Shown piece by piece: positions 6,286 through 20,619 of a stretch of 20,619 nucleotides of DNA; positions within the stretch are counted from its first letter, which is position 1, and each line of letters starts with the position of its first letter. Position numbers and translations under genes: made by a program. The notes under the pieces are model-generated. The model saw only the letters and a program-made list of their open reading frames with translations, was not told the DNA's origin and did not search any database. This DNA comes from a virus. The DNA lies in the IMG/VR virus record IMGVR_UViG_3300035156_000276, positions 1-20,619 of that record; one strand, written 5' to 3'.

Positions 6286-6308
6286 TGGTGCCCGGAACCG
6301 GAATCGAA
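6286..6308 (-). other. tRNA 3'-end fragment, probable prophage attachment site
   Basis: Read on the - strand this is TTCGATTCCGG then TTCCGGGCACCA: the T-loop, the 3' side of the T-stem, the 3' acceptor strand (TCCGGGC), discriminator A and CCA of a tRNA that would begin GCCCGGA (tRNA-Phe-like). The 5' side of the T-stem is absent, so the tRNA is cut in the T-loop. Such fragments are typical of attL/attR left by tyrosine-integrase prophages. Phage-type genes begin just to its right. The matching full tRNA should lie outside the window. Confidence 0.65.
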
Positions 6309-7197: not shown

Positions 7198-7497
7198 TCA
7201 TCGCATCAGCTTCGGCTTCAACCTCGGTTTCACTTTGACCCCCAAGCGCTCGAAGCAATTCAGCGGATTCGATACGGTCACTTTCACCGGCGTCCGCGAA
7301 AGCTTCATGCTGAACTTCGGCGCCGCCTGCGACTGCGTACACGCCACGATGTGCGCCTGGACGTCAGCAACCTTGAACCGAATTAAGCGACGGCCCAGCC
7401 TCACACATGGGATCGGACCTTTCGGCGCGGCCAAGTCGTACACGGCGCCGCGGCTGATGCCCAGCATCTCGGCGACTTCTTCCGCGGTAATCATCAT
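7198..7497 (-). CDS. Helix-turn-helix DNA-binding protein (HTH_17/excisionase-type)
   Basis: 99 residues starting at MMITAEEVAEMLGISRGAV. The motif ITAEEVAEMLGIS...VYDL.....IPCVRLGRRLIRFKVADVQAHI is the standard single-domain winged HTH_17 fold used by small phage excisionases and AlpA-type regulators. The start is fixed by the ATGA overlap with the upstream gene's stop; the longer open frame upstream reads through that gene in another phase and is unlikely. The C-terminal ~45 residues are basic (KVKPRLKPKLMR) and not recognised. It likely binds DNA near the attachment site or an early promoter. Confidence 0.8.
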   Translation of the reverse strand: MMITAEEVAEMLGISRGAVYDLAAPKGPIPCVRLGRRLIRFKVADVQAHIVACTQSQAAPKFSMKLSRTPVKVTVSNPLNCFERLGVKVKPRLKPKLMR

Positions 7498-7859
7498 CTT
7501 TGTTCCTGATAACTCGCCGCCCATTCGACTATCTCCCCGGCCCTGTAAAGCAGCTTCCCCCGTCCTCCTCCGCGACCTGGCAGCGATATCGCAGCCGGAA
7601 AATCTGGCCGGCACGCCATCGATTCGCGCACTGTCACCACGTGGCGTCGAAAATAGTGAGCGATTTCAGTGAGGGTCCACAGCTGATCCGCCAATGGCAC
7701 CGCGGCCGTTTCGAGCTTCGCCAATATCAGATCCAGTCTCGCTATAACCTCCGCGTTTCCTAATATTGGCAGGCCGTCAGCCTGTCGCGTCGCGGCTATT
7801 AATTCGCCGGCGATCTGGAGGTGCAGTTCGATGGCGGCGGCAATTGGACCGCTCGTCAC
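7494..7859 (-). CDS. Helix-turn-helix domain protein, AlpA/MerR-like
   Basis: 121 residues. The N-terminal half is helical (LDLILAKLETA); the C-terminal half, LWTLTEIAHYFRRHVVTVRES...DFPAAISLPG...KLLYRAGEIVEWAA, is a winged helix-turn-helix of the AlpA type. The same arrangement (LA/LP..LWTL..I..Y.., then DFP/GFP and LY...E...WA) recurs in the rightward gene at 10094-10417, so the two are likely distant paralogues. It overlaps both neighbours by 4 bases in the leftward operon. Probably a prophage transcription or excision regulator. Confidence 0.72.
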   Translation of the reverse strand: MTSGPIAAAIELHLQIAGELIAATRQADGLPILGNAEVIARLDLILAKLETAAVPLADQLWTLTEIAHYFRRHVVTVRESMACRPDFPAAISLPGRGGGRGKLLYRAGEIVEWAASYQEQR

Positions 7860-8191
7860 GTCGATTTCGATGCTTTACGCGCAGATGCGAGCGTTGCCAG
7901 GGAGGGCGAGCTAGCATCCCATTTTTCGATCCATTCTTCGACAGCCGGCAGATTGATCCACAGCCGACCGTCCACAATTTTACATTGCAAGCCATCGATC
8001 CATTTGCCTACGCGGCGCCGGGACTGCACCGCGTCGACAGAATCGCCGGACAGTTCCACGTACCTATCCAGCTTCACCCAGGTAAGCGGGTGCGTCTTCG
8101 CTGCTGCCTTCGCCGCCGCGGCACGCGCATTCTTCTCGATCGTCGCGACCAGTGTCGCCACCATGTCGACGTCGGCCACGGTCATATTCAC
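7856..8191 (-). CDS. Excisionase (Xis)-like protein
   Basis: 111 residues. After an alanine-rich helical N-terminus, the region from about residue 37 reads WVKLDRYVELSG....AVQSRR..GKWIDGLQ.KIVDGRLWINLPAVEEWI. This is the layout of phage excisionase-family proteins, in which a small winged helix binds and bends DNA at the attachment site. Members usually stand next to the integrase gene, but none is found here. It lies in the leftward operon with 4-base overlaps on both sides. The excisionase role is inferred from family resemblance. Confidence 0.75.
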   Translation of the reverse strand: MNMTVADVDMVATLVATIEKNARAAAAKAAAKTHPLTWVKLDRYVELSGDSVDAVQSRRRVGKWIDGLQCKIVDGRLWINLPAVEEWIEKWDASSPSLATLASARKASKST

Positions 8192-8475
8192 GGTGACGCC
8201 TTTTTCCTTTTCGATTTCGGCGCCGCCGGAACTGGCGCTGCGGCCGACGTCACGTTGATCTGGACAGCCGCGCCCATGCGATCCGCCACCGCCTTGAGTA
8301 GCGCCTCGACTGGGACCCCGGTCAAGCCTGACGTTCCATCCGTTGCCGCATCCAAGGCTGCCACAATTTCAGCGTTCGTACTTCGGCCGTTTGCCTTCGC
8401 AAGCTGTTCAACTCGCGTTCGCAGCTCTTCGGGCATCCGGAGAGGGAAGGGTGTCGGCTGTGGAATCTTTGTCAT
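8188..8475 (-). CDS. Arc-family ribbon-helix-helix regulator
   Basis: 95 residues if the ATG at 8475 is used (MTKIPQPTPFPLRMPEEL). This start matches the beginning of the divergent paralogue; a TTG at 8496 would add seven residues. The motif FPLRMPEELRTRVEQLAKANGRSTNAEIVAALD is an Arc/Mnt-type ribbon-helix-helix fold, in which the beta strand FPLRMP enters the major groove. A tail of about 45 residues ends in a basic stretch (KSKRKKASP). It is the first gene of the leftward prophage operon and probably controls the divergent promoter region at 8476-8578. Confidence 0.85.
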   Translation of the reverse strand: MTKIPQPTPFPLRMPEELRTRVEQLAKANGRSTNAEIVAALDAATDGTSGLTGVPVEALLKAVADRMGAAVQINVTSAAAPVPAAPKSKRKKASP

Positions 8476-8519
8476 CTGACGATTCTGCACTACCAAAGAT
8501 CGCCGGGCAAAGAGTCTGC

Positions 8520-12064: not shown

Positions 12065-12294
12065 GCCATCAGGTGAGCGGCCCGACGGCCGCAGGACGCT
12101 TCCTGGTCACATATCCGACCCCAGGCCTTAGTGTACCCACCGTGGCCTGCGATTGCAGCACGCGCGGGCAGGCCCACGGCGAGGCTGAACGCCTCAACCG
12201 CGCGCAGCAGCTGCGCGAGCAGGCCATTCGCAATGATCGTCAACTGCGTGGGCTTGGCGGCGTGTATCACGGGCTGGGCCCGCTTGGTCGATGA
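12058..12294 (+). CDS. Hypothetical phage protein
   Basis: 78 residues starting MLSHQVSGPTAAGRFLV. A textbook AAGGAGG lies 7 bases before this ATG, which decides it over upstream in-frame starts. The protein contains two close cysteines (ACDC) and an arginine/glutamine-rich helix (EAERLNRAQQLREQA). This resembles small phage proteins that sit directly before the replication gene; the role is unknown. Confidence 0.62.
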   Translation: MLSHQVSGPTAAGRFLVTYPTPGLSVPTVACDCSTRGQAHGEAERLNRAQQLREQAIRNDRQLRGLGGVYHGLGPLGR

Positions 12295-13358
12295 GTGCTG
12301 GCCCGCAGCTCGAGGATGGATTCGTCCGCATTGCCAATGAGTTGTTGGAGGCGATCCTGCGCTTCGACCTCTCACACCGCGAACAATCGGTGGTGCTGAC
12401 GATCATCCGGAAGACCTACGGCTACGGCAAGAAGGAAGACGACATCTCTGCGACGCAGATCGGCGAGCTGTGCGGTATCGCAAGGCCGCACGTCACCGCG
12501 GCATTGAATCAGCTCGCGCTGCGCAACGTGATCACAAAGCGCGCGGGTCGCTTCGGTTCGATTATCGGCATTCAAAAAAATTACCGCAAATGGGTTGGGC
12601 TCGATCAGATGAAAAGCACGATTGATAGTACCGATTCGGTACAGGGGTGTACCGATTTAGTACATGTACCGATTCAGTACACGGGTAGTACCGAATCGGT
12701 ACAGGTCGATAGTACCGATTCGGTACACACAAAAGACAACCTTCCAAAAGACAACCACCAAAAGAAAACATCTTGCGCTCCGCTTGGAGAGCCTGGTTCG
12801 GAAATCGCAATCCCAGCAGGCCGACCAGGCCGGGCTACGACGGATGCGAAAGCCGAACTGCAAAACCGTTTCGAGCGGTTCTACGCCGTCTATCCCCGCA
12901 AGCGTTCCCGGCAGGCTGCCGAAAAAGCGTTCGCCAAGATCAACCCCGACGAGCAGCTCCTGACGGCGATCCTTGCCGGCATCGAGCGGGCCATGACATC
13001 GGGCGAGTGGACGGATAGCAAATTTATTCCGCACCCGGCCACCTGGCTCAACGCTGCAGGCTGGCAGGACGAAATCCAGACCGCGTACACCGACGCTGAG
13101 CTGCTGGTGATCGGAAGGTTCAACGACGCGCTGGGTGACCGCCTGGGCCATGTGCAGACCGTCCCATTCCTGGCAGAGCGTGCGGACGCCATCAAGGCAT
13201 TCACCACGTTCTCCGAAAAGCCCGGCTTCATCGACCGCTTCTTCGCATGGGCCGGCGCCAACGTCGACTTTCCGCCGAGCGTGGGCTTCGACTGGCTCAT
13301 CAGCCGCAAGGGCTACACGAATGCCACCAGTGGCCAGCACAGCAAAAGGGCACCATGA
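12291..13358 (+). CDS. Phage replication initiator (O-like)
   Basis: 355 residues. Residues ~5-100 (LEDGFVRIANELLEAILRF.LSHREQSVVLTIIRKTYGYGKK.D.IS..QIGELCGI.RPHVTAALNQLALRNVI) are the winged-helix DNA-binding domain of phage replication protein O. Residues ~113-145 are low-complexity because the DNA there is the iteron array. The C-terminal part (FERFYAVYPRKRSRQAAEKAFAK, then FIPHPATWLNAAGW) is the segment usually found in initiators that recruit the helicase. The initiator most likely binds the iterons inside its own gene, as lambda O does. It overlaps the dnaB-like gene by 4 bases. Confidence 0.9.
   Translation: MSAGPQLEDGFVRIANELLEAILRFDLSHREQSVVLTIIRKTYGYGKKEDDISATQIGELCGIARPHVTAALNQLALRNVITKRAGRFGSIIGIQKNYRKWVGLDQMKSTIDSTDSVQGCTDLVHVPIQYTGSTESVQVDSTDSVHTKDNLPKDNHQKKTSCAPLGEPGSEIAIPAGRPGRATTDAKAELQNRFERFYAVYPRKRSRQAAEKAFAKINPDEQLLTAILAGIERAMTSGEWTDSKFIPHPATWLNAAGWQDEIQTAYTDAELLVIGRFNDALGDRLGHVQTVPFLAERADAIKAFTTFSEKPGFIDRFFAWAGANVDFPPSVGFDWLISRKGYTNATSGQHSKRAP
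12628..12726. other. Probable phage replication origin: five palindromic iterons
   Basis: Five 15-bp palindromic sites, consensus GTACCGATTCGGTAC, start at 12628, 12649, 12666, 12688 and 12712. Two are exact copies, one is GTACCGAATCGGTAC, and two have one or two changes in the right half. They lie inside the initiator gene and are followed by an A-rich, C/A-skewed stretch (about 12727-12775) that could melt easily. Iterons within the O gene plus an adjacent AT-rich segment is the lambda-type origin plan. Confidence 0.82.
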
Positions 13359-14731
13359 GCAATATCGATAACTACGGCGCGGCGCTCTACTCGAACGAGG
13401 CGGAGCAGTCGGTCCTAGGCGCGCTGATGCGATTCCCTGAATCTTTCGACCAAGTCGGCGACCTCATGGCGAAGCATTTCTTCCGCGCTGAGCATACGGA
13501 GATTTTCAGCACCATCACAAAACTGGCGCGCGAGGGCAAGTCGCACGATCTGATCTCGGTTCTGGCTGGCATACAGGCCGCCGGCGGGCCATACGTCGAG
13601 GGGATGGCGCCGTACCTCAACGACATGGTGCAAAGCGTCCCTAGCTCCGCTCACGTCAGCCGTCACGGCGCTCTCGTCATCGAGCACGCGCTGCTGCGGG
13701 CAATCCTGCACGTTGGTGGCTGCGTGGTGGACATGGTTCAAGACCGCAAGGGCAAGGGCGCCGATGAGATCCTCGACAAGACACAGTCGATGGTCAATTC
13801 GCTGGCCGAGCGTCGTGTCCGCAACGAGCCGCGGATGATTCGCGACGTGATGTCCGATTTCATCGAGTCGGTTGCGCAGCGCGCCGGCGGCCTGCAGTCG
13901 GCCATCTCGACCGGCATTGAAGGTATCGATCGACTGCTCAACGGCGGCGTGCGCCCTGGCCATCTGGTAATCGTTGCCGGCCGCCCGTCGATGGGGAAAA
14001 CCGCACTGACCACCGACATGGGCCTAAACATGTCATCCACAGTGAGCGTGCTGAACTTCAGCATGGAGATGGAAAGTCAGGAAATCGCCGCGCGCGCCCT
14101 GGCCAACCGCGGCCGCGTCAACTTGGCGCAGCTCATGGGGCAGATCAACGAAAACGACACCGATACCTGGAATCGAGTTACCCACGGCACCATCGTGCTC
14201 AGCGATTTGTCGTTCGCCATCGATGACACCGCCGCCATTTCGCTGCTGGAGCTGCGCCTAAAAGCGAAGGCATGGAAGCGGCGCCATGGGCTCGACGTCA
14301 TCATCGTGGACTACCTGGGCCTGATGACCGGTGGCGACGGCGATAAGCGGCACGAGCAGATCGGCTCATATTCGCGCGGCCTGAAGGCTCTGGCGAAGGA
14401 ACTTGGCGTGGTGGTGATCGCGCTGGCCCAACTCAATCGCAAGGTCGAGGACCGCCCCGACCGCCGCCCGATGCTGTCGGACCTGCGCGACTCCGGCGAG
14501 ATCGAGCAGGATGCCGACATTGTGATGCTGGTGCACCGTCCGGAGATGTACGAGCCCGAGAACGGTGAGCTACGCGGCTTCGCCGAGGTGTTGGTGCGGA
14601 AGCACCGCAGCGGCTCCCTGGGCGATATCCCGCTCAACTTCGATGGCCCGACGTGTCGGTTTTCCAGTTGGACCGGCGCCACGCCGAACGCGCCCGTCGT
14701 CAAAAGTCGCAACAGCCGATTCCCCGGCTAA
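13355..14731 (+). CDS. dnaB: Replicative DNA helicase, DnaB family
   Basis: 458 residues starting MSNIDNYGAALYSNEAEQSV; the ATG overlaps the initiator stop. The N-terminal helical DnaB domain (EAEQSVLGALM..PESFDQV) is followed by the RecA-like core: Walker A GRPSMGKT (209-216), FSMEM.S.E (236-243), Walker B VIIVDYLGLM (315-324), AQLNR.VEDR..R.P..SDLRDSGEIEQDAD and the C-terminal HRSG arginine-finger region. All motifs are intact and length is normal. It would unwind DNA at the phage origin after loading by the O-like protein. Phages such as P22 use the same O-like plus own-DnaB pairing instead of a helicase loader. Confidence 0.97.
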   Translation: MSNIDNYGAALYSNEAEQSVLGALMRFPESFDQVGDLMAKHFFRAEHTEIFSTITKLAREGKSHDLISVLAGIQAAGGPYVEGMAPYLNDMVQSVPSSAHVSRHGALVIEHALLRAILHVGGCVVDMVQDRKGKGADEILDKTQSMVNSLAERRVRNEPRMIRDVMSDFIESVAQRAGGLQSAISTGIEGIDRLLNGGVRPGHLVIVAGRPSMGKTALTTDMGLNMSSTVSVLNFSMEMESQEIAARALANRGRVNLAQLMGQINENDTDTWNRVTHGTIVLSDLSFAIDDTAAISLLELRLKAKAWKRRHGLDVIIVDYLGLMTGGDGDKRHEQIGSYSRGLKALAKELGVVVIALAQLNRKVEDRPDRRPMLSDLRDSGEIEQDADIVMLVHRPEMYEPENGELRGFAEVLVRKHRSGSLGDIPLNFDGPTCRFSSWTGATPNAPVVKSRNSRFPG

Positions 14732-16473: not shown

Positions 16474-16658
16474 TTGCAAAGACTCGCCAACGGATGGCGA
16501 CCGGACATAGCCTAGGCCGGGACGAAGAAGCCATCCAGCATCGCCGAGCGGGGAATAGAAAACACAGTCGGGCGCAGCAATGCACGCCGAACGACGCCGG
16601 ACGCTGTAACCGGCACGCCTCACTGGCGCAACCAGTGACCACACAGAGCGGCCCGTGA
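16452..16658 (+). CDS. Doubtful small basic ORF
   Basis: An ATG overlapping the end of the membrane-protein gene opens a 68-codon frame (MGGATELIAKTRQRMATG...) rich in Arg, His and Gln. No clear ribosome site or known domain; the last ~7 codons run into the closing helix of the structured RNA at 16639. It may be a real small phage protein or chance reading of a non-coding stretch. Confidence 0.28.
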   Translation: MGGATELIAKTRQRMATGHSLGRDEEAIQHRRAGNRKHSRAQQCTPNDAGRCNRHASLAQPVTTQSGP

Positions 16659-16764
16659 ATGTCGGCCGACGCTTGAAAGCTGTCGCGACAGCCGTAGGGT
16701 AAATCTCAGGAAATGGTAGGAGCGTTCGATTCGCTCCCCTGTAATCCCGGGTCGCTCTGTGTGG
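16639..16764 (+). ncRNA. Candidate structured RNA closed by a 17-bp helix
   Basis: CCACACAGAGCGGCCCG (16639-16655) pairs along its full length with CGGGTCGCTCTGTGTGG (16748-16764), with one G-U pair. Inside are a 10-base palindrome GTCGGCCGAC (16661-16670) and a 14-base palindrome GCTGTCGCGACAGC (16679-16692). There is also a T-arm-like hairpin GGAGCG-TTCGATT-CGCTCC (16719-16737), extended by CAGG (16707-16710) pairing CCTG (16738-16741). It lies among tRNA and tmRNA genes with no coding signal inside. It is not a standard cloverleaf and I do not recognise a known family. Confidence 0.5.
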
Positions 16765-16928
16765 TTAAGCGCGTGTCGTAGCGTAGGGTTGGGGGTTCCC
16801 GGCCGCCACAAAGTGCAGGCGAGGTTTGGCGTAGACAAGCCGTGGGGCCGCGAAAGCGGTGGACCAGTACGGGCTCCTCGTGAAGAAGAAATGCCAATGG
16901 CAGCCGGGAAATAGCGGCAACCAGTTTC
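16765..16928. other. Non-coding spacer before tRNA-Gly
   Basis: No gene or canonical tRNA found. It contains a small GNRA-capped hairpin, CCGC-GAAA-GCGG near 16851, and several G-rich tracts. Reverse-strand open frames across this segment also run through the tRNA and tmRNA genes and are not credible. Confidence 0.5.
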
Positions 16929-17000
16929 GCAGGTAACGCCAAGGTGGCGCCTCACCCTTCCAAGGTGATCGATGCGGTTCGATTCCGCAAACCTGCTCCA
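16929..17000 (+). tRNA. tRNA-Gly (anticodon UCC)
   Basis: 72-base cloverleaf ending in an encoded CCA. Acceptor GCAGGT pairs ACCTGC (6 of 7 pairs, the last being A-A). The D-arm is GCC-AAGGT-GGC with an unusually short loop. The anticodon stem TCACC/GGTGA encloses CTTCCAA (anticodon TCC), and the T-arm is TGCGG-TTCGATT-CCGCA; discriminator T as in bacterial tRNA-Gly. The tmRNA acceptor piece begins within about 10 bases of its 3' end, suggesting co-transcription and processing from one precursor. Phage copies of tRNA-Gly(UCC) would supply GGA codons. Confidence 0.85.
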
Positions 17001-17007
17001 GAATTGT

Positions 17008-17366
17008 CGTAATCCCATCCAAGTGATGGCGTGTTGGACGAGGGTTCGATTCCCTCCAGGTCCACCAAAAGCAGTTATTCGAAAAATTCGAGCAACTTCT
17101 TTTGATGGGCCTGACCTGGTTTCGACAGCGCGCAGCAGCAGACGATGGCGGCACGGTAGGCGATGACCGTTAATCAAGCACCCGCAGAAATGCAAACGAC
17201 GCAGAATTCAAGGTCGCGGCTTACGCCTAAGACCTTGTGAGGAACGGGCCGCGCCTTATCACCGAATGGCGGCCCACCGAATATTGCAGTCCGAGCGCGG
17301 AAGGCCGCGCAAGCCGGAACGGAAACCGGCACCAGTCTCCCGCGCCGATTACCAAATCGTCGCGTT
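17008..17366 (+). ncRNA. ssrA: Circularly permuted (two-piece) tmRNA
   Basis: The acceptor piece comes first: T-arm GAGGG-TTCGATT-CCCTC (17040-17056), then CAGGTCC-A-CCA (17057-17067). After a 39-base intervening segment the coding piece starts GGGCCTG (17107-17113), which pairs all 7 positions with CAGGTCC. GGTTTCGAC (17118-17126) is the conserved D-loop region. AGCGCGC (17127-17133) pairs with GCGTGTT (17029-17035), rebuilding helix P2 across the two pieces. A PK1-like element (ACGGT/ACCGT) leads to the tag frame at 17192-17230, A-N-D-A-E-F-K-V-A-A-Y-A-stop. CAAGGTC/GACCTTG (17209-17215/17231-17237) forms the stem around the stop codon. tmRNA with SmpB rescues stalled ribosomes. The outer ends are approximate. 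Confidence 0.9.
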
Positions 17367-17390
17367 CCGCCAACCTCTGGCGGCTTTTTA
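17367..17390 (+). terminator. Rho-independent terminator of the tmRNA
   Basis: CCGCCA-ACCTC-TGGCGG followed by CTTTTTA. It directly follows the hairpin-rich 3' part of the tmRNA coding piece and precedes the next protein gene by 15 bases. Confidence 0.88.
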
Positions 17391-18724: not shown

Positions 18725-18811
18725 ATGCGATTGTTCGGCCCGCAGAGTAATATGGCAGGGAAAAATGAAAATATCCTCGATGCCGCGATGAACAATGTTC
18801 GGTTTGAGTGA
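18725..18811 (+). CDS. Possible 28-aa leader ORF before HNH gene
   Basis: ATG to TGA frame encoding MRLFGPQSNMAGKNENI.. and ending VRFE. The TGA overlaps the ATG of the HNH gene (TGATG), which would couple the two. No strong ribosome site. Confidence 0.4.
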   Translation: MRLFGPQSNMAGKNENILDAAMNNVRFE

Positions 18812-19200
18812 TGGTCGCGAGGCCTAAATCCATCTGCCGAAAGGTAGCCTGTGGCGCATTAATCGATTCGCCAGGGTATTGCGCCAAGCACGCGCAGTTG
18901 AAGGTCGGCTGGGCGGCATCACACAATGGCAAGACGGCGGCGCAGCGCGGGCTTGATTACGCATGGCAGCAGCTGCGCAAGCGGATATTGAGCAGGGATG
19001 GTGGCCTCTGCCGCATCAAGGGCAATGCCTGCGAGTACGTCGCGCGTGAAGTTGATCACATTATAGGCAGAGCGAAGGCGGCTTCGATGGGGTGGACCAG
19101 GGCGCAGATGGATGTTGAATCGAACCTACAAAGTGTATGCAAACCGTGTCACAAGGCCAAATCAGATGCCGAAGCAGCCGCCGCAAGGGGGAGGGTATAG
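18811..19200 (+). CDS. HNH endonuclease
   Basis: 129 residues from MVARPKSICR; a GTG three bases earlier is possible. An N-terminal zinc knuckle-like set (Cys9, Cys14, Cys24, His27) is followed by the HNH domain: LRKRIL.RDGGLC (Cys67), Cys74, the VDHII catalytic motif (His83), N105 and the C..CH closing pair (Cys110, Cys113, His114). HNH proteins directly before the terminase genes are typical of HK97-type phages, where they nick DNA and assist packaging with the large terminase. The position here matches. Confidence 0.93.
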   Translation: MVARPKSICRKVACGALIDSPGYCAKHAQLKVGWAASHNGKTAAQRGLDYAWQQLRKRILSRDGGLCRIKGNACEYVAREVDHIIGRAKAASMGWTRAQMDVESNLQSVCKPCHKAKSDAEAAAARGRV

Positions 19201-19280
19201 GCATTGTTCGGGTCATTCACAACCCAGACCGTCTGTCCAGCTTTATTTTTACGTCCACAAATCAAACTTTGGAGTTCTGA

Positions 19281-19679
19281 ATGCCAAAACCTCGCACGCC
19301 TTCGGCAGTTCTTGAAGCGCGGGGAGCGTTCGCCCAAAATCCGGATCGCAAACGTGAGGACTTTCAGTCTGGTGAATTCGATCCAGTCGCGCCTGAATAT
19401 TTCACAGCCGCGCAAACGGCTGTATGGGATGAGCTGGTGCGGCTTTTGCCTGCATCGGTTTTGCAGGCCACGGATCGAATGGCGGTGGAATTGGTAGCGC
19501 GGCTGGTCGCCCGGTTCCGCTTGATCGACGATGCCGACGTGACCATGGCCCAGGTTGCACAAATCCGAACGGCGCTCGCGACCCTTGGTATGACGCCTGC
19601 GGATCGTTCTCGCGTCAGCGCCAAGAAGGTGGTCGCTGCCAATCCATTCTTGGCTCTGGTGGCGAAGACCAGGGCTTGA
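19281..19679 (+). CDS. terS: Terminase small subunit, P27 family
   Basis: 132 residues. The N-terminus MPKPRTPSAVLEARGAF..NP.R and the body PEYFTAAQTAVWDELVRLLPASVLQATDRMAVELVARLVARFR, then TLGMTPADRSRVSAKK, match the P27 family of phage small terminases. The protein recognises the packaging site and activates the large subunit. It lies 1 base before the large subunit start. An 80-base gap separates it from the HNH gene. Confidence 0.93.
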   Translation: MPKPRTPSAVLEARGAFAQNPDRKREDFQSGEFDPVAPEYFTAAQTAVWDELVRLLPASVLQATDRMAVELVARLVARFRLIDDADVTMAQVAQIRTALATLGMTPADRSRVSAKKVVAANPFLALVAKTRA

Positions 19680-19680
19680 C

Positions 19681-20619
19681 GTGTCCGCCGATTTTGTCGG
19701 CATTGCGCTCGAATATGCGCAGGCTGTGGCCGGTCGAAAGATCGTCGCATGCAAATGGGTAAGGCTGGCCTGCAAGCGACATCTGGACGATCTAAAGGCG
19801 GCCAAGAAACGGAAAGCAAAATACTATTTCGATGAGGCGGCGGCAAATAAAGTTTGCGAGTTTCTGTCGCTGATGCCGCATACCAAAGGCAAATGGGCGC
19901 GCAAACGCGAACTCATTGTCCTGCAGCCGTGGCAGTGCTTTGCGTTCTGCACACTCTTTGGTTGGAAGCAGACGAAGGACGATCGGCGCCGGTACCGCAA
20001 AGCCTACTTCGCTGTGCCGCGGAAGAACGGCAAGTCGATCATCGGCTCCGGTATCGGTCTGTACATGTTCGCTGCTGACGGTGAATTCGGCGCCGAGGTG
20101 TACGCCGGAGCCGGCACCGAAAAGCAGGCATGGGAAGTTTTCCGCCCCGCCAAACAGATGCTCGAGCGCACGCCTGAACTGCGCGAGGCCCTAGGCGCGG
20201 AGGTGATGGCGAAGTCGTTATTCAATCCTGACGACGGCTCGCGGTTTGAACCAGTAATCGGCAAGCCTGGTGATGGGTCAAGCCCTTCATGCGCGATCGT
20301 CGATGAGTACCACGAGCACGATACCAGCGATCTTGTCGATACGATGGAAACCGGCATGGGGTCTCGTGAGCAGCCTTTGATGCTGATGATCACGACGGCC
20401 GGGTTCAACATCGCCGGGCCATGCTACGACCAGGAGACTGAGGCCAAAAAGGTGCTTGACGGCGTCCTCGAAAACGATGAGCTGTTCTCCCTGATCTACA
20501 CGATCGACGACAACGATAAGTGGAACGACCCGAAAGCGCTGTACAAGGCGAACCCGAACATGGGCGTGTCGGTCGACGAAGACTTTCTGCTGAGCCAGCA
20601 GCGACAGGCGGTGCAAAGC
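19681..20619 (+). CDS. terL: Terminase large subunit, 5' part
   Basis: The frame opens with GTG at 19681 and remains open to the window edge (313 codons), so the C-terminal nuclease domain is outside. The ATPase domain shows Walker A PRKNGKS (113-119), the adaptor-like Y.GAGTEKQA segment, Walker B AIVDEYHE (205-212) and the coupling motif TTAG (399-type motif seen as MITTAGFN). This is a Terminase_1-type, HK97-like packaging motor that drives DNA into the procapsid. Start chosen because GTG follows the small subunit stop by one base and no earlier start exists. Confidence 0.96.
   Translation, partial: MSADFVGIALEYAQAVAGRKIVACKWVRLACKRHLDDLKAAKKRKAKYYFDEAAANKVCEFLSLMPHTKGKWARKRELIVLQPWQCFAFCTLFGWKQTKDDRRRYRKAYFAVPRKNGKSIIGSGIGLYMFAADGEFGAEVYAGAGTEKQAWEVFRPAKQMLERTPELREALGAEVMAKSLFNPDDGSRFEPVIGKPGDGSSPSCAIVDEYHEHDTSDLVDTMETGMGSREQPLMLMITTAGFNIAGPCYDQETEAKKVLDGVLENDELFSLIYTIDDNDKWNDPKALYKANPNMGVSVDEDFLLSQQRQAVQS

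Follow-up and report, generated by a model that had tools for sequence, protein, structure and literature searches.

A circularly permuted tmRNA gene that lies among phage genes raises the question of whether it encodes a working RNA, whether it belongs to the phage or to the bacterium around it, and what would become of the proteins that it tags. The gene analysed here is part of a 20,619-base IMG/VR virus record, referred to below in its full length as the window, in which the left part is bacterial and the phage extends from ~7.2 kb onward. An initial annotation had described the locus as a prophage-borne, permuted tmRNA gene, suggested phage capture and a possible takeover of ribosome rescue, and passed without comment over what our analysis shows to be its odd part, the tag ANDAEFKVAAYA.

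Identity and structure of the gene

A complete circularly permuted (two-piece) tmRNA gene occupies the window from 17002 to ~17345. When the whole window was scanned with cmscan, the Rfam model beta_tmRNA (RF01850) matched 16955-17288 with 127.2 bits (cut-off 84, E=7e-39) and the model tmRNA_permuted (RF04321) matched 17005-17224 with 121.2 bits (cut-off 47, E=1e-23), and ARAGORN, which is independent of Rfam, called a permuted tmRNA (tmRNA*) with the tag ANDAEFKVAAYA. Since both models match above their gathering scores with these E-values and ARAGORN independently agrees, the match is not due to chance, and the two-piece gene claimed by the initial annotation is confirmed.

The CCA-bearing piece lies upstream of the tag piece, and the acceptor stem is formed across the intervening segment (Table 1). 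The alanine identity set is present (G3-U70, A discriminator and CCA), and the resume codon and the stop of the tag frame are both at the conserved place according to the Rfam models and ARAGORN. The acceptor stem, P2, GGTTTCGAC, tag frame, stop-codon stem and terminator that had been described are all there, with coordinates accurate to a few bases, and the intervening segment has exactly the length that was given for it. The extent of the gene (17008-17390) stood in part: a gene is present in that interval, but the RNA starts at ~17002, directly after tRNA-Gly, and the piece conserved in a relative reaches to ~17340. Processing of tRNA-Gly at its 3' end would generate the 5' terminus of the tmRNA.

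Table 1. Position and basis of the phage genes and tmRNA elements in the window
Feature	Position	Strand	Basis and remarks
Excisionase-like and Arc-like regulator genes, temperate-phage control region	7198-8496	-	PHROGs
Phage replication module: O-like initiator (12291-13358), DnaB-type helicase (13247-14731)	12291-14731	+	PHROGs, Pfam
Phage tRNA-Gly (TCC)	16929-17000	+	ARAGORN; immediately 5' of tmRNA
Acceptor (CCA-bearing) piece	17002-17067	+	Rfam models, pairing; compensatory changes in P1, P2 and T-arm
T-arm	17040-17056		5/5 pairs
Discriminator A and CCA	17064-17067		Directly after acceptor 3' strand
Intervening segment, 39 nt	17068-17106	+	Exact length counted; expected to be cut out
Coding (mRNA-like) piece	17107-17345, 3' end approximate	+	Rfam, ARAGORN; G049 prophage copy alike to ~17340
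Acceptor stem, GGGCCUG/CAGGUCC	17107-17113 with 17057-17063		7/7 paired, third pair G-U
GGUUUCGAC in coding piece	17118-17126	+	Between acceptor 5' strand (17107-17113) and P2 5' strand (17127-17133)
P2	17127-17133 (5' strand) with 17029-17035 (3' strand)		7 pairs including two G-U
Tag reading frame ANDAEFKVAAYA and stop UAA (17228-17230)	17192-17230	+	ARAGORN; identical in G049
Stop-codon stem AAGGUC/GACCUU around the stop codon	17210-17236	+	Covaries in L429
Helix GGGCCGC/GCGGCCC 3' of tag	17246-17275	+	Compensatory G-C to C-G change in relatives
Hairpin GCGCGG-AAGG-CCGCGC	17295-17310	+	Four compensatory pairs in relatives
Intrinsic-terminator-like hairpin (17367-17383) and T run	17367-17390	+	Similar sites not rarer in shuffles; alone weak evidence
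HNH endonuclease, terminase small subunit (19281), large subunit (19681, runs off record)	18808-20619	+	Protein-family matches

Phage setting

The ARAGORN calls of tRNA-Ser, tRNA-Gly and tmRNA all fall between the DnaB and terminase genes, and the tmRNA gene lies inside the phage gene block, where it belongs to an accessory RNA locus with the replication genes on one side and the packaging genes on the other. Its description as prophage-borne, adjoining a phage tRNA-Gly and upstream of terminase agrees with the character of the record, which is of the prophage type with a bacterial left flank; this flank encodes two proteins of the PEP-CTERM type and holds an IS element with a DDE transposase. 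The window proteins scanned included no SmpB-like one, no integrase was identified in the window, and no riboswitch was found with the window tmRNA.

On the minus strand, a tRNA-3'-end-like sequence at 6286-6308 (ATTCGATTCCGGTTCCGGGCACCA) may be the attachment site. The O-like replication gene contains five 20-nt direct repeats at 12624-12727 (GATAGTACCGATTCGGTACA), which are likely origin iterons. Just 5' of tRNA-Gly, at 16638-16765, lies a strongly folded segment with a 20-bp terminal stem (z -5.7). Its 5' flank is kept in related phages, with a tRNA-Pro at that place in L013, and the segment looks like a site for RNA-gene cassettes.

Relatives and selection on the RNA

A permuted match was obtained in 19 of the 393 genomes scanned from the family Burkholderiaceae. 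The prophage copy in G049 has the tag ANDAEFKVAAYA and adjoins genes homologous to the early genes of the window phage, with a phage helicase and primase beside it; G049 carries a standard tmRNA as well, and four further species of the genus lack the permuted copy. The viral contig L429 can be aligned over the full length of the RNA, has DnaB, tmRNA and terminase in the same order as the window, and encodes the tag ANDAQFLVAANA. A 292-kb viral contig, L596, has the tag ANDSQFKVAAYA (KVAAYA ending), with synonymous codon changes.

Covariation was counted over the window, the G049 prophage and the L429 phage, with 7 helices (42 pairs) written out and 96.8% of the helix cells paired. Both sides had changed in 13 of the 42 pairs, a number that over three sequences counts differences and not independent events. 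Shuffling gave a mean of 4.6 and reached this number in 0/500 runs, and controls with slid partners gave 0-3. Compensatory changes were found in the acceptor stem, P2, the T-arm, the stop-codon stem and two downstream helices, and G3-U70 and CCA are invariant in all three sequences. The intervening segment is twice as long in G049 (78 nt) as in the window (39 nt), the two show no obvious resemblance, and a blastn search with that of the window gave no match among the collected loci. The acceptor stem is preserved across a segment that itself diverges freely, and such divergence is expected if the segment is discarded. The window tmRNA is therefore under selection as an RNA, in the pattern predicted for a working two-piece molecule, and the gene is maintained by selection in several phages.

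Probable host and origin of the gene

The best terminase relatives belong to Massilia aquatica, Herbaspirillum sp. SJZ107, Duganella and Rugamonas (73-87%), with IMG/VR relatives reaching 90%, and these relatives together with the bacterial flank point to Oxalobacteraceae of the Massilia type as the likely hosts. A standard one-piece tmRNA scored above the cut-off in seven Oxalobacteraceae genomes of the terminase relatives, and its tag in the host-like genomes is ANDNSYALAA where ARAGORN reads the tag fully. Genome G107, which gave the best match (88%) to the protein of the bacterial flank, likewise carries the one-piece form. When the genus of the closest Massilia-type relative was searched, none of 17 genomes had a permuted tmRNA, and a flanking PEP-CTERM protein had no match. 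The L196 call of G107 does not represent a permuted tmRNA, nor do a few short, atypical viral calls.

The phage loci of the terminase relatives (73-90% identical terminase) lack a tmRNA, and on this ground the gene was rejected as a conserved gene of the phage lineage. Since the host-like genomes have the one-piece form and the nearest prophages with the same terminase are devoid of tmRNA, the window gene is an accessory phage gene, of a form foreign to the probable host, and not the host ssrA. The initial annotation would have been refuted by covariance models without a hit, or by a locus that proved to be the host's only ssrA; both models matched, and the locus is not the only ssrA, since host-like genomes carry a standard one-piece tmRNA. 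The proposal of phage capture, when understood as capture from the present host, is not supported: host-like chromosomes carry the one-piece form, and the window gene is nearest other viral permuted tmRNAs in a weakly supported tree of 160 columns, in which forks are mostly weak and which describes clustering only. Recent capture from the host is thus disfavoured, and other phages are the more likely source of the gene.

A tag without terminal Ala-Ala

tmRNA tags normally end in Ala-Ala, which is the ClpXP degron. The window tag keeps the AND start and ends in AAYA, with the AA two residues in from the end and no C-terminal Ala-Ala (LAA-like) of the ssrA degron. The ending VAA[YN]A recurs in the tags of the G049, L429 and L596 relatives, where it is written GTC GCG GCT TAC GCC, GTA GCG GCT TAC GCC or GTA GCA GCT AAC GCT. 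The tag nucleotides of the window and G049 are identical, so that comparing only these two cannot reveal peptide-level selection; across the four phages, C-terminal tag codons differ synonymously (AAG/AAA, GTC/GTA, GCG/GCA) and VAA[YN]A is kept. The same or a similar tag in independent records led us to reject a sequencing error or a single-phage quirk. A degenerate tag-DNA pattern without Q/N alternatives gave no match in IMG/VR viral contigs.

The frequency of such endings was estimated from 339 IMG/VR viral loci chosen by DNA patterns lying outside the tag; L596 was excluded because it was retrieved by a pattern requiring VAA[YN]A. AA endings account for 260 of the 279 ARAGORN calls in this sample. 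Among the permuted calls, 16/215 have a non-AA ending, of which a few seem to be false calls, leaving ~6% by our own count; the endings include LVA, MVA, KVA, ALAV, TANA and AANA. Individual viral permuted tmRNAs with other non-AA tags have the endings ALAV (L535, L569, L472), LKVA (L387, L434), RMVA (L466, L519), RLVA (L435) and MTANA (L328). At least 13 changes of tag state were counted on the tree, and non-AA endings probably arose several times. For VAA[YN]A, an older tag ending in ...VAA may have had its stop UAA changed to UAC or AAC, with the next in-frame stop taken into use and the new ending then kept.

The last two alanines matter most for recognition by ClpX, and -YA should weaken recognition by ClpXP. 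In E. coli, tags of the LVA and AAV type nevertheless remain targets of degradation, and Tsp/Prc, a periplasmic protease, tolerates C-terminal ends that are small and apolar. An end in -YA has this character too and could be accepted by Tsp/Prc or ClpXP, and degradation may persist.

Proposed function and alternative explanations

In our view the window probably encodes a functional phage-borne two-piece tmRNA that uses host SmpB and has an altered degron, with an altered fate of the tagged proteins as the expected consequence. The RNA would be transcribed together with the phage tRNAs, late or in lytic growth. RNase P and the tRNA 3'-end processing machinery would then remove the 39-nt segment and leave the two pieces paired. 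The joined pieces would be charged with alanine by host AlaRS and bound by host SmpB, and would free stalled ribosomes during phage growth alongside the one-piece tmRNA of the host. ClpXP would probably receive products tagged with ANDAEFKVAAYA less efficiently, or a different protease would take them, in which case ribosome rescue would be kept and product disposal altered.

A possible but less favoured explanation is an ordinary accessory tmRNA, which would supply extra trans-translation capacity during lysis and whose YA extension would be neutral and tolerated by host proteases. Most viral permuted tmRNAs do have AA endings and are presumably conventional, and LVA, KVA and ALAV endings recur in phages, LVA and AAV being known to remain degrons. 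A neutral extension should drift, yet the conservation of VAA[YN]A in four phages, over synonymous changes of its C-terminal codons, is not what drift would leave. It is improbable that the RNA serves chiefly as a decoy, titrating SmpB and inhibiting host tmRNA, a role that has been proposed for the tag-less one of mycobacteriophage DS6A: a decoy would have no need of the coding piece, tag frame, stop-codon stem and downstream helices, yet all of these are conserved by covariation. The lack of any SmpB-like gene found in the window would suit such a role, as does the report that an RNA with a tRNA-like domain only inhibits tmRNA (PMC4131195). Prophages often integrate in ssrA and may contain ssrA fragments (PMC9004378), and the locus could in principle be a relic, a piece of host ssrA carried off by imprecise excision or with an attachment site. 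This is already contradicted and scarcely credible, for the gene is complete, permuted unlike the host form, placed mid-phage between replication and packaging genes, and marked by compensatory evolution, and the tRNA-3'-end-like sequence at 6286-6308 is a better attachment-site candidate. A pseudogene or att fragment is likewise rejected by the completeness and covariation of the gene.

Under the preferred reading of a functional tmRNA with an altered degron, the case would separate the two jobs of tmRNA, since freeing the ribosome is conserved whereas the degron, which condemns the protein, has changed repeatedly. With a one-piece host tmRNA present alongside, size and, in mass spectrometry, the tag would tell the products of the phage from those of the host.

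A second permuted tmRNA in a Burkholderiaceae genus

In one Burkholderiaceae genus, 10 of 34 species have an extra permuted tmRNA beside the standard one (loci L182-L188 and L190-L192; genomes G237, G189, G220, G295, G315, G290, G310, G261, G211 and G249). All ten extra copies have a tag ending in A[YFV]GT, to which one copy adds YS, and their Gly and Thr codons vary synonymously; the ARAGORN tags of L190-L192 are mispredictions, and by hand they read ANDQQFLAYGT, ANESQFIAYGT and ANDSQFLAYGTYS. No description of an A[YFV]GT-tagged second permuted tmRNA was found among the open-licence papers searched. Like the window gene, these copies are permuted, extra to a standard tmRNA, and have a tag without terminal AA. 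They differ in being apparently chromosomal, with chromosomal-looking neighbours that vary between species, in their ...A[YFV]GT tags, and in forming a group separate from the window's lineage in the tree (mostly weak forks). These predicted genes show that phages are not alone in having an extra permuted tmRNA with a conserved non-AA tag. Tentatively, phage and second-copy permuted tmRNAs might form a class in which SmpB-dependent rescue is combined with conserved non-degron tags (VAA[YN]A, A[YFV]GT) and tagged proteins are spared or redirected. Related extra permuted tmRNAs beside a standard tmRNA occur at L189 and L193-L195 (G006, G101, G219 and G210), with tags that are ANDANYLVQVYG or ~28-31 residues long (e.g. 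VNNVYAKVGHVGGKYAGFMTNDGDRYSLAA).

Comparison with known systems

The two-piece tmRNAs of RF01850 and RF04321 share with the window gene the presence of all tRNA-domain helices, but the tags of the sole-copy chromosomal members scanned nearly all end in LAA, IAA, VAA or MAA (L595: VA), unlike the AAYA ending of the window. Permuted phage tmRNAs are also found in Xanthomonas phage XacN1, Pseudomonas phages SM1/PaMx31 and Stenotrophomonas phage QDWS359, whose host bacteria have a one-piece tmRNA of their own. Unlike the window phage, these are isolate gammaproteobacterial phages, with tags ending in ALAA, RLAA and AIAA and longer intervening segments. The mycobacteriophage tmRNAs of Bxz1 and Wildcat are one-piece, and that of DS6A differs from the window gene in consisting of the tRNA-like domain only, tag-less and of the type that inhibits host tmRNA. 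The Wildcat tmRNA is very highly expressed (PMC7474061).

A phage-borne two-piece tmRNA as such is not new, since that of Melnitz is already published (PMC9004378). A survey reported 402 phages encoding 133 unique tmRNA structures, with 53 two-piece ones suggested by ARAGORN (PMC9004378), and the current tmRNA database, of 11,946 sequences, holds 79 phage tmRNAs (PMC11915505). The Melnitz-type phage tmRNA (ssrA) is, like that of the window, permuted, phage-borne and foreign to the host lineage. Melnitz-type phages are mostly marine or aquatic and lytic, with alphaproteobacterial affinity and a glutamine riboswitch, whereas the window contains a temperate-type Oxalobacteraceae phage whose tmRNA fits the beta-type model, has no riboswitch found with it and ends its tag without terminal AA. 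As far as could be tested, what is new is the two-piece form in a betaproteobacterial temperate phage of one-piece hosts, with a conserved tag that lacks terminal AA.

The permuted tmRNA genes are unannotated in the isolate records of XacN1 (L003), SM1 (L004) and QDWS359 (L005), and in QDWS359 a CDS on the opposite strand is annotated over the permuted tmRNA.
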